64,000 nt of DNA from assembly GCA_016871725.1 (NCBI GenBank), contig VHCL01000001.1, forward strand, positions 62,001-126,000, given 5' to 3'. The stretch is from Verrucomicrobiota bacterium (lineage in GTDB: Bacteria; Verrucomicrobiota; Verrucomicrobiia; Opitutales; UBA953). The stretch's first letter is position 1; each line of letters starts with the position of its first letter. Under the pieces are notes generated by a model. It was not told the origin of the DNA, did no database searches, and saw only the letters and a list, made by a program, of their open reading frames with translations. A program made the translations under genes and the position numbers. Of this stretch, positions 568 through 12,587 are shown one piece after another.

Positions 568-2448
568 ATGCGACCTCACAAACAAATCCGCCTCGGGCCC
601 GACCGCCCCTACGACGTCATCGTCTGCGGGGCCGGCCATGCCGGCGTGGAGTCCGCCCTGGCCGCGGCCCGCATGGGCGTGGATGTCCTGCTCCTGACGG
701 GCAACATCGACACCATCGCCCAGATGAGCTGCAACCCCGCCATCGGGGGACAAGCCAAGGGGCACATCGTCCGGGAGATCGACGCCCTGGGGGGCGAGAT
801 GGGCCTGACCGCCGACGTCACCGGCATCCAGTTCCGCCTGCTCAACTCATCCAAGGGTCCGGCCGTCCAGGCCCCCCGCGCCCAGTGCGATAAGAAGGCT
901 TACCAGTTCCGGATGAAGCACCTCTGCGAACTGCAGGAGGGTCTGACCATCTTCCAGGCCCAGGTCACCGGCCTGATCTTCAAAGCGGGCGCCGTCGTCG
1001 GGGTGCAGACCAATCTGGACCTCGATTTCCACGCCAAGACCGTGGTCGTGACGACGGGCACCTTCTTGCGCGGCCTGATGCACATCGGGGCGAATAAAAC
1101 CGAAGGAGGTCGGCTGGGTGACTTTAGTGCTAAGTCATTGTCAGCCAGTTTCTTAGAGGCTGGCATTGAACTCCAAAGGCTCAAGACCGGCACCCCTCCG
1201 CGCATCCTCGGATCGTCCATTGATTTCACCAAGTGCGAGGAGCAACCAGGCGACGCCTCCCCTACCCTCTTCGCCTTCCATGACACCCGGCAGCAAACCG
1301 ATTTGTTCCACGTGGAACAAGCGGGCGAGCGACTCCCTGGATGGACCCCGGGAAGCGAGCAGGTCTCTTGTTGGATGACGGAAGCCACAGGCGCCACGGG
1401 TAAGATCGTCCAGGAGAATCTCCACCTCTCCCCCTTATACGGAGGCGAGATCACCGGGGTCGGCCCGCGCTATTGCCCCTCCATCGAGGACAAGTTCGTG
1501 AAGTTCTCAGATAAGGACGCCCATAAGCTCTACCTAGAGCCAGAAGGACGAAATACCGACGAATGGTACATCAACGGATTGTCCACCTCCCTGCCCTTCA
1601 CGGTCCAGCTGCAGATGCTGGCCTCCGTCCCTGGCCTGGAAAACGCCGTCATGCTGCGCCCGGCTTATGCCGTGGAGTATGATTTCGCGCCCCCTACCCA
1701 ACTCTACCCCACCCTGGAGTCTAAAAAGGTGGATGCCCTCTTCTTCGCAGGCCAGATCAATGGGACATCGGGCTACGAGGAAGCCGCCGCCCAAGGGTTG
1801 GTAGCCGGGGTCAATGCCGCCTGTAAGGTCAAAGGCCGGACCCCGATGGTCCTCGGCCGCGACGAAGCCTATATCGGCGTCCTGATTGATGATTTGGTGA
1901 CCAAAGGCACCCAAGAGCCTTATCGGATGTTCACGAGCCGAGCCGAATTCCGCCTTTTGTTCAACCACGGCAGCGCCGAACTCCGCCTAAAGGACAAAAT
2001 CGCCGAGTTCGGCTTGGTGCCGCCGGATCGGTTGGCTCGGATTCAAGCCAAGGCCCAAAAAGTGGCTCACTGGATCGAATACCTGGAAAAGCTGGCCATC
2101 CCTGGCGGCATCGCCGGCGACGTCATCCGTCGTAACTGGGAATCAACCCCTAAGGATTTACCGCCCACATTCCTTGCCGAAGCCCCCGAAGTGCAGGCGG
2201 AGGTCATGTATCGGGTCAAATACCGAGGCTATCTGGAACGCGAAACCCGCAACGCCCGTAAACTGCACGATCTGGACTCTTTTAAAGTGCCGGAGGGCTT
2301 TGATTTCTTGAAGGCCTACGGACTGCGGATTGAGGCGCGCCAAAAGCTCCACGCCATCCAGCCCAAGACCTTGGGCCAGGCCAGCCGGATCAGCGGGGTT
2401 AATCCGGCCGACATCTCGCTGCTGATGGTCCTTTTCCGCTCAAAATAA
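568..2448 (+). CDS. mnmG: tRNA uridine-5-carboxymethylaminomethyl modification enzyme MnmG (GidA)
   Basis: FAD-dependent partner of MnmE in U34 tRNA modification. From the ATG at 568 the protein has 626 residues, the usual length. The dinucleotide-binding GAGHAG is at residues 21-26, MSCNPAIGG follows near residue 53, and LKTGTPPR and [11 protein letters not shown] are present further on. The ATG has a GAGGGAG-like ribosome site; a GTG at 541 overlapping the mnmE stop is an alternative start. The segment after about 1084 is clearly lower in GC (two sampled lines near 2.2-2.3 kb give 55-57%) than neighbouring genes. A parS-like palindrome lies inside the gene at 1303-1320, in a stretch that looks inserted relative to the E. 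coli protein as I remember it. Confidence 0.96.
1303..1320. promoter_or_regulatory. parS: parS-like ParB-binding site inside mnmG
   Basis: The 16-bp core TGTTCCACGTGGAACA is a perfect palindrome at 1304-1319, extended to 18 bp by flanking T/A. It matches the ParB/Spo0J site family (consensus near TGTTTCACGTGAAACA; the TTCC/GGAA form is known from pseudomonads). It encodes residues around LFHVEQ of MnmG. A second copy at 2475-2496 makes chance unlikely. ParB occupancy is inferred. Confidence 0.85.
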
Positions 2449-2474: not shown

Positions 2475-2496
2475 GGGTGTTCCACGTGGAACACCC
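2475..2496. promoter_or_regulatory. parS: parS-like ParB-binding site downstream of mnmG
   Basis: This is the same 16-bp core as the site in mnmG (core 2478-2493), here sitting in a 22-bp perfect palindrome because GGG and CCC flank it. It starts 27 bases after the mnmG stop, in non-coding DNA. No parA or parB gene is present in the window. Confidence 0.88.
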
Positions 2497-10316: not shown

Positions 10317-11210
10317 GTGACGACCCCTCCCGAAAAACGTCCCTATGCGTCCCCGGAAGAGGCCGCCCGCATCTACCTGCTGCCCAACCTCTTCACGGCC
10401 GGCAACATGCTGTGCGGCTTCCTCGCGATCAAGAACTGCATCGAAGCCCGTTTCACGACGCTGACGCCCGAAGGACGGGCCGAACATTACAACATGGCGG
10501 TCTGGTTCATCCTGTTCGCCTGTCTCTGCGACCTCTTCGACGGTCGGGTGGCGCGCGCGACCAAGCGGGAATCCCTGTTCGGCGCGGAGTTCGATTCCAT
10601 CGCCGACACGGTCTCCTTCGGCGTCGCCCCGGCCCTGATGGCGTGCTTCCTGGTCATCAAGCCCGGCGCCACGGATAACGTCCAGCTCATCACCTGGCTG
10701 CTCGCCTTCATCTACCTGCTCTGCGCCGGCGTACGTCTGGCGCGTTTCAACGTCCTGACCAACCCGTTGGTCCCCGGCAACGAGAAGCGCGCCGCCGGGG
10801 GCGATTTCGTAGGTCTGCCGTCCCCGGCCGCCGCCGGGATGATCGCCTCGCTGGTCCTCGTCCTATCGAACGTCATCGTCAACCCCGACCAGAAGGACCC
10901 CTTCGAGCAGGCCGTGCATAAGTGGCCCTTCATCCTGCTGCCGGTCATGCTGGTCATCTCCTTCCTGATGGTCAGCAACGTCCGCTTCCCGAGCTTCAAG
11001 AAGCTCGACTGGACCACCCGGGCCAAGACCCGGGGCTTCATCCTCATCATCATCCTAGGCGCGGTGATCTTCCGTTACCCCCAGTACGCCTTTCCGGCCG
11101 TCTTCCTCGGTTACGTCTGCTACAGCCTTTTCCGTCACGCCTTCCTCCTGAAGAAGAGCGAGATGGACCCGGCGCCCGACGACGATGATGAACCGGTGTC
11201 CAAGGTGTGA
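10317..11210 (+). CDS. pssA: CDP-diacylglycerol-serine O-phosphatidyltransferase
   Basis: Inner-membrane enzyme making phosphatidylserine from CDP-diacylglycerol and L-serine, the step toward phosphatidylethanolamine. It has 297 residues and several hydrophobic segments. The CDP-alcohol phosphotransferase signature DGx2ARx8Gx3Dx3D is exact: DGRVAR, eight residues, G, then FDSIAD. The start is GTG at 10317, two bases after the previous stop. The last codons overlap a DnaA-box-like sequence of the intergenic region that follows. Confidence 0.93.
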   Translation: MTTPPEKRPYASPEEAARIYLLPNLFTAGNMLCGFLAIKNCIEARFTTLTPEGRAEHYNMAVWFILFACLCDLFDGRVARATKRESLFGAEFDSIADTVSFGVAPALMACFLVIKPGATDNVQLITWLLAFIYLLCAGVRLARFNVLTNPLVPGNEKRAAGGDFVGLPSPAAAGMIASLVLVLSNVIVNPDQKDPFEQAVHKWPFILLPVMLVISFLMVSNVRFPSFKKLDWTTRAKTRGFILIIILGAVIFRYPQYAFPAVFLGYVCYSLFRHAFLLKKSEMDPAPDDDDEPVSKV

Positions 11211-11459
11211 ACAGGCGGTGGACAATCCGTGCCCGTGACGGCCTGTGAACAAGCCGAGGGTTATTCACGCTTCGGGCACAAAAGCGGCCGGGACGGATGC
11301 TCCCTCTCACCAGCGTCTTGCGGAACTGTGTACGGACTTCCGACCCCTGCTGATGCTACGGGTATTTATAAATGAAGAGAGAATAGATACCGACAGGGCC
11401 GGGATGTGGGCAATGAGGGGTTGCCTCTGCCCCCGCCTCTGCTCAATTCTGACGTCATC
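11206..11459. other. oriC: candidate chromosomal origin (oriC) upstream of dnaN
   Basis: This gap before dnaN holds four DnaA-box-like 9-mers within 64 bases: TGTGAACAG (11206-11214), GGTGGACAA (11217-11225), TGTGAACAA (11244-11252) and TTATTCACG (11261-11269). Each differs from TTATCCACA or its complement at one to three positions. About 90 bases further on is an AT-rich patch (11361-11390, containing ATTTATAAATGAAGAG) that could serve as an unwinding element. Box cluster plus AT-rich patch beside dnaN, in a window with parS-like sites, fits an origin. None of the boxes is perfect and dnaA is not in the window. Confidence 0.5.
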
Positions 11460-12587
11460 ATGAAGTTCAAGGTCAACCGGAATCACTTTTTCAACGGGCT
11501 CTCGAGCGTGACCAACGTCGTCGGCAGCCGTGCGACGATGCCGATCCTCCAGAACGTCCTCATCGAAGCCGAAGGCGACACGGTCACCCTCACCACGACC
11601 AACCTCGACCTCGGCATCTGCTGCCGCATCAAGGCCGCGGTGTCTTCGCCCGGTCGCATCACCCTGCCGGTCAAGAAGCTCGTCCCGATCGTCCGCGCCC
11701 TTTCGAGCAGCGACACGATCGTCGAACTCACCGGCAAGGATCGCGTCAAGATCACCTCCGGAAGCTCCGTCTTCCAGGTCGCCGGCCTGCCCGCCGACCA
11801 GTTCCCGCCGATCTCCAACTTCGCCGGTCAGCCGACCATCTCGATCAACCAGGACGATCTCGGCGACATGCTCCGCAAGGTCAGCTACGCGCAGTCGTCC
11901 GACGAGAACCGTTACATCCTCAACGGCGTCTTCTTCGAATTCGCCGAAGGCAAGCTCACCGTCGTCGCCACCGACGGCCGTCGTCTGGCCAAGTGCGAAC
12001 GCAAGCTGGCCGGCACGGACAAGACCCTCGCGCTCATCCTCCCCGCCCGCACCATCATCGAACTGATGCGTCTGCTGAAATCCGGCGGCGAAGCCCACGT
12101 CTCGCACAACGAACGCCAGGTCGGCTTCACCATCGACATCCCGAAGAACGAGGAAGGCCTCGTGGACCGCATCCAGCTGGTCTCCAAGGTCGTCGAAGGC
12201 AACTATCCGAACTACCGCCAGGTCATCCCCAAGGACGCCGGCTCGAAGGTCCGCCTCGAACGCGAGAAGCTCCTCGAGAGCGTGAACCGCGCGGCGCTGA
12301 TGACCGACGACCGTAACAACACCATCCGGATGAGCGTCACCAAGAAGTCGCAGAACCTCGAGATTTCCGCGAAGTCCGACAGCGGCGACGCCCATGAGCC
12401 GATCGCCGTGAAGTACGAAGGCCCCGACGTGAACATCGCGTTCAATCCGCAGTACATCATCGACCCCCTCAAGGCGCTGACCGAGGACGAGATCGACTTC
12501 GAATTCAAGGACGAGATGTCCCCCGGCGTCATCCGCGGGCTCAAGGATGATTTCCTCTGCGTCGTGATGCCGCAGCGGATCTCCTGA
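11460..12587 (+). CDS. dnaN: DNA polymerase III beta subunit (sliding clamp)
   Basis: The 375-residue clamp begins MKFKVNRNHFFNGLSSVTNVVGSRATMPILQNVLIEA, the standard DnaN opening, followed by three repeats of the clamp fold. The ENRYILNGVFFE and VATDGRRLAKCE segments are characteristic of domain 2, and the protein ends with the usual VVMPQRIS-type terminus. I start at the ATG at 11460 because it gives the family N-terminus. It is not flanked by dnaA or recF here. The stop codon sits in a short inverted repeat shared with convergent plsC. Confidence 0.97.
   Translation: MKFKVNRNHFFNGLSSVTNVVGSRATMPILQNVLIEAEGDTVTLTTTNLDLGICCRIKAAVSSPGRITLPVKKLVPIVRALSSSDTIVELTGKDRVKITSGSSVFQVAGLPADQFPPISNFAGQPTISINQDDLGDMLRKVSYAQSSDENRYILNGVFFEFAEGKLTVVATDGRRLAKCERKLAGTDKTLALILPARTIIELMRLLKSGGEAHVSHNERQVGFTIDIPKNEEGLVDRIQLVSKVVEGNYPNYRQVIPKDAGSKVRLEREKLLESVNRAALMTDDRNNTIRMSVTKKSQNLEISAKSDSGDAHEPIAVKYEGPDVNIAFNPQYIIDPLKALTEDEIDFEFKDEMSPGVIRGLKDDFLCVVMPQRIS

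Follow-up and report, generated by a model that had tools for sequence, protein, structure and literature searches.

The intergenic region directly upstream of dnaN in a genome of the Opitutales is very probably its chromosomal replication origin (oriC). The anatomy of the region, its conservation, its location at a strand-skew switch in relatives and the absence of an adjoining dnaA are computed observations. A sequence-only reading had proposed a candidate origin here, and the conservation of its DnaA boxes, a DnaA-trio-like element, skew switches at dnaN in relatives and nearby parS sites all support that proposal.

Gene Neighborhood and the Location of dnaA

The window, i.e., the whole 64,000-nucleotide stretch that was analyzed (G000:C1:62001-126000), belongs to a 2.37-Mb assembly of 178 contigs with 69% GC; the contig carrying the candidate origin, C1, is 146,739 bp long. 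Among named relatives, the closest are metagenome bins assigned to Opitutae/Opitutales, and the names of many point to lakes. The genes follow in the order mnmE (assigned by sequence inspection only), mnmG with two parS sites, a two-component pair, a sigma-54 activator, a hemA-like gene, a low-molecular-weight phosphatase, a CDP-alcohol phosphatidyltransferase gene, the candidate origin and dnaN. The candidate had been placed directly before dnaN, and indeed dnaN starts at 11460 and matches all three beta-clamp domains of Pfam.

1304..1319, unstranded: parS-like palindrome TGTTCCACGTGGAACA inside mnmG (sequence match)
2478..2493, unstranded: parS-like palindrome TGTTCCACGTGGAACA just after mnmG (sequence match)
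10317-11210: CDP-alcohol phosphatidyltransferase gene, upstream neighbor of the candidate origin
11421..11450, plus strand: conserved blocks TTGCC and CAATTCT before dnaN, possibly the dnaN promoter (alignment of relatives)
11460..12587, plus strand: dnaN, DNA polymerase III beta clamp (Pfam PF00712, PF02767, PF02768)

The TTGCC and CAATTCT blocks, ~18 bp apart and without an obvious ribosome-binding site, may be a non-consensus dnaN promoter; a scan of the candidate region for sigma-70 consensus promoters gave no match.

As the first reading had it, no dnaA stands beside dnaN: the gene, which encodes the N-terminal, ATPase and DNA-binding domains of DnaA, sits on contig C36, so that the two genes are on separate contigs, as in a dnaN-linked oriC without dnaA. 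The genes are adjacent in 0 of 20 Opitutales genomes of one sample and in none of the further Opitutales genomes examined, vs. 39 of 93 other genomes of the class in the sample, in which they share one contig (a hand count). These counts, taken without a tree, therefore suggest that the separation is characteristic of Opitutales, with some other groups of the class split too. Elsewhere in the class, dnaA and dnaN are roughly 1 Mb apart in four genomes of genus g34 (G081, G089, G108, and G150), and two complete 0.9-Mb genomes (G079 and G088) have no match to the DnaA ATPase family.

The two parS-like sites, said to lie ~9 kb away, are real, being 9.0 and 10.2 kb off, and the 2.37-Mb assembly has no others. 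TGTTYCACGTGRAACA is present once or twice in 50 of the 57 genomes searched. In the 18 same-genus genomes examined that carry both on one contig, parS is always 8.9-10.7 kb from dnaN; the distance ranges from 5.5 to 75 kb in seven genomes of other families, and in G040, a complete genome of another family, it is 19 kb.

A Conserved Cluster of DnaA Boxes

The distal part of the candidate contains four DnaA-box-like 9-mers within 64 bases (11206-11269), where a box-like 9-mer has at most one mismatch to TTRTNCACA. All four are present as first described, and none is perfect, i.e., equals TTATCCACA.

11206..11214, minus strand: DnaA-box-like 9-mer 1, CTGTTCACA (conservation of at least 95% in 7 of its 9 columns across 50 related sequences)
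11217..11225, minus strand: DnaA-box-like 9-mer 2, TTGTCCACC (poorly conserved in the alignment of relatives)
11244..11252, minus strand: DnaA-box-like 9-mer 3, TTGTTCACA, the best box (9-mer match)
11261..11269, plus strand: DnaA-box-like 9-mer 4, TTATTCACG (9-mer match and related genomes)

Box 1 shares bases with the stop codon of the CDP-alcohol phosphatidyltransferase gene, and the distance from box 3 to dnaN is constant within 1-3 bp in most related genomes. The contig holds 37 box-like 9-mers; four in 64 bp is its maximum, the next best separate site has two, and 60 Markov-simulated contigs never had more than two in 64 bp. The cluster thus exceeds chance, and clustered intergenic boxes of this kind are typical of a bacterial oriC. 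A denser cluster of perfect boxes elsewhere had been named as one finding that would speak against the candidate. No denser cluster exists on the contig. Three rival sites inspected for boxes elsewhere, picked among the matches listed (100 of 120 genome-wide), hold two or three apiece: C5:25376-25406, where an rpiB-like gene has its 3' end, C3:27479-27553, and C34:2269-2845, where the boxes are spread out.

Comparing the 9-mers across related genomes, a check that the first reading had suggested, showed boxes 1, 3, and 4 to be conserved and box 2 poorly so. The alignment covered the 420 bp preceding dnaN in related loci and the window, and its 50 closer sequences were used for statistics; information reaches 1.6-1.8 bits per column at boxes 1, 3, and 4, vs. 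0.4-0.8 in the intervening DNA. Boxes also accumulate in other Opitutales families: the 330 bp before dnaN hold 95 box-like 9-mers in 34 genomes, vs. 20 expected from shuffles. Many of these genomes have a box followed by a CATAATAAGAATA-like sequence, without a clear CTA-type trio, and the unwinding element may therefore differ between families. At dnaN of G042 and G052, no box or no recognizable arrangement was found.

A Proximal Box, Trio-Like Repeats and an AT-Rich Patch

The feature is larger than the boxes and AT-rich patch originally delimited; both of these stand, and a further, degenerate box and trio-like repeats occupy 11326-11361 between them.

11326..11334, plus strand: trio-proximal DnaA box, degenerate here (CTGTGTACG) (alignment columns)
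11335..11346, unstranded: 12-bp spacer with conserved TTCCG (98-100%) (alignment)
11347..11361, minus strand: DnaA-trio-like element of five trinucleotides (alignment of 50 sequences)
11362..11390, unstranded: AT-rich patch, probable duplex-unwinding element (76% AT here, 78% mean in related sequences)

The proximal box reads YTRTNCACG in most sequences; its forms in relatives include CTATCCACA, TTATCCACG, and TTATACACG, and several lineages have a near-consensus version (TTATCCACG or CTATCCACA). The proximal box is flanked by an inverted repeat, CGGAA...TTCCG, which was dropped because relatives do not conserve it. The trio-like element reads CTG CTG ATG CTA CGG on the top strand and 3'-GAC GAC TAC GAT GCC-5' on the bottom strand, for which the consensus is 3'-GAT GAC NAN GAT GAC-5'; three relatives carry CTACTACTACTG here. 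A central top-strand T occupies all five trio centers in 28 of 50 sequences and four of five in 20, with frequencies of 1.00, 0.78, 0.96, 1.00, and 0.78 at 11348, 11351, 11354, 11357, and 11360; the window has it at four of five, all consecutive. The AT-rich patch, placed near 11361-11390 by the first reading, is found at 11362-11390 in surroundings of about 63% GC, adjoining the boxes as an unwinding element of oriC would.

The order of putative box, spacer and trios matches that of the basal unwinding system (BUS), oriented towards dnaN. The published BUS rules call for a box with at most two mismatches, a spacer of up to 16 bp (peak 10-13) and at least three NAN trios (PMC8287927). The 12-bp spacer of the window falls within this range, and runs of at least three consecutive trios with a central A on the bottom strand are present, with 48 of 50 sequences having at least four of five centers. 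A box of at most two mismatches within 16 bp of the trios occurs in many relatives (e.g., CTATCCACA) and is absent from the source genome. The candidate thus resembles a BUS, and strict membership is not claimed for the source genome because its proximal box, CTGTGTACG, has five mismatches to TTATCCACA.

Strand Asymmetry and Alternative Explanations

In relatives, strand skew changes sign at or near dnaN. In G058, a genome of the same genus (also G148) with 54% GC, GC and T-A skew both turn from negative to positive at 80-100 kb, and the cumulative GC-skew minimum is at 93,807, with the dnaN start at 92,408. In G040, samples between 1,040 and 2,230 kb have negative skew and those from 2,340 kb through the start have positive skew, the only sampled negative-to-positive change falling between 2,230 and 2,340 kb; the fine minimum, 2,293,674, sits 399 bp upstream of where dnaN starts (2,293,275, minus strand). 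The complete genome G131 switches between 2,088 and 2,120 kb, with a fine minimum at 2,097,018 and dnaN starting 1.9 kb off at 2,098,871. The cumulative GC minimum is thus 0.4-1.9 kb from the dnaN start in all three genomes. In G143, also complete, the sampled sign change near 1,100-1,130 kb and dnaN at 1,169 kb are about 50 kb apart, and the skew of G055 is too noisy to be strong evidence. At least two complete records, those of G131 and G143, begin their numbering at dnaA (base ~400), with the skew switch at or near dnaN; the two genes are 2.1 Mb apart in G131 and 1.2 Mb apart in G143.

These data bear on the possibility that the conserved boxes form only a DnaA-regulated dnaN promoter and that the origin lies elsewhere, e.g., beside dnaA. 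Promoter regulation by DnaA does occur, and the region upstream of dnaA in relatives (L106-L115) has conserved boxes of its own, ~650-730 bp before the part that encodes the DnaA ATPase domain (CTATTCACA, TTATCTACA, and TTATTAACA in a stretch of about 80 bp, with TTGTTCACA beyond it); the source contig, which ends about 100 bp upstream of dnaA, gives a partial view of this region. The dnaA-upstream boxes probably serve autoregulation. However, the sampled skew sign stays constant at dnaA and changes at or near dnaN in G040, G131, and G143 (in G058, skew at dnaA is weakly negative), parS is near dnaN, and a promoter alone leaves the box-spacer-trio-AT-rich order unexplained, making a promoter-only role very unlikely. 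An origin near dnaN but outside the intergenic region, e.g., beside mnmG and parS, is even less likely: mnmG (gidA) is an origin neighbor in many bacteria, and skew minima resolve the switch to about 2 kb, worse on the contig itself, yet there is no comparable box cluster near mnmG on the contig, and the minima of G058, G040, and G131 lie 0.4-1.9 kb from the dnaN start, with parS 19 kb away in G040.

On the contig of the source genome, one of 178, raw GC skew is mostly positive on the left and negative on the right. The cumulative GC-skew minimum proposed as a check on the candidate is found near dnaN in G040, G131, and G058; on the contig itself the curve has its maximum in the neighborhood of dnaN, owing to a local GC skew that is inverted in this high-GC lineage. 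Gene calling used a simple hexamer model built in-house, and neighboring genes are non-independent, so that the following values are approximate. T3 exceeds A3 in leading-strand genes (median 0.140, vs. -0.047 in lagging genes; P = 0.0004), and the coding-strand T3-A3 contrast is greatest when the origin is placed at 70-73 kb, dnaN being at 73.5 kb. Gene orientation switches from 28 plus and 32 minus on the left to 52 plus and 15 minus on the right (P = 0.0004). T-A skew and gene orientation on the contig thus behave as expected of an origin. G3-C3 is lower in leading genes (median -0.301 vs. -0.217; P = 0.0007), inverted relative to G057 and G058; the GC-skew sign is normal in relatives with 54% and 62% GC and inverted in the 69% GC source genome. 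One guess is that the inversion comes from a stronger preference for C-ending codons in leading-strand genes.

A Model for Initiation and Its Implications

At the intergenic oriC preferred here, which most likely works through DnaA boxes and a trio-like unwinding element, DnaA binding, unwinding and initiation would proceed as follows. DnaA made from its distant gene would bind the distal boxes (11206-11269) and be passed on to the proximal box (11326-11334). A DnaA oligomer would then assemble on the trio-like bottom strand (11347-11361) and open the adjoining AT-rich DNA (11362-11390), where the helicase and then the DnaN clamp would be loaded. Segregation of the new origins would fall to ParB bound at the parS sites, 9-10 kb away.

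How this arrangement arose can be proposed only tentatively. In an Opitutales ancestor, dnaA may have moved away while oriC stayed with dnaN; the proximal box may have decayed in one high-GC branch, in which unwinding may use the distal boxes or a reverse-strand site. This scenario is possible, if rather doubtful; if true, it offers a natural experiment on the extent to which an origin requires the basal unwinding system.

We found no paper describing an Opitutales origin in the open-access literature searched. The candidate would locate the origin across an entire order of bacteria, common in freshwater and soil, for which dnaA misleads as a landmark; coverage-based growth-rate estimates, strand-bias analyses and genome rotation in Opitutales should then use dnaN. 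It would also add Opitutales, represented by about 50 aligned natural variants, to the groups with a box-spacer-trio layout.

Comparison with Known Origins

In Bacillus subtilis, the BUS is located just before dnaN. As in B. subtilis incC/BUS, where the trio consensus is 3'-GAT-5' with a central A (strand and direction per PMC8287927 and PMC6669920), the Opitutales candidate has a DnaA box, a short spacer, repeated DnaA-trios and then AT-rich DNA. Unlike in B. subtilis, where dnaA adjoins the BUS, dnaA is elsewhere in the source genome, and the proximal box is degenerate there (five mismatches), though near-consensus in several relatives. The oriC of Methylacidiphilum infernorum, likewise of the phylum Verrucomicrobiota and found by GC skew, lies 250 nt upstream of dnaA and not at dnaN (PMC2474590).

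In Synechococcus elongatus, too, the origin is close to dnaN, at a skew shift point, and dnaA is encoded separately (PMC7198777; PMC6323995). Cyanobacteria differ in being another phylum with another box type (TTTTCCACA), and the separation of dnaA was probably independent in the two groups. In arrangement, the candidate comes closest to the cyanobacterial origin near dnaN; a dnaN-linked oriC without dnaA is already known.
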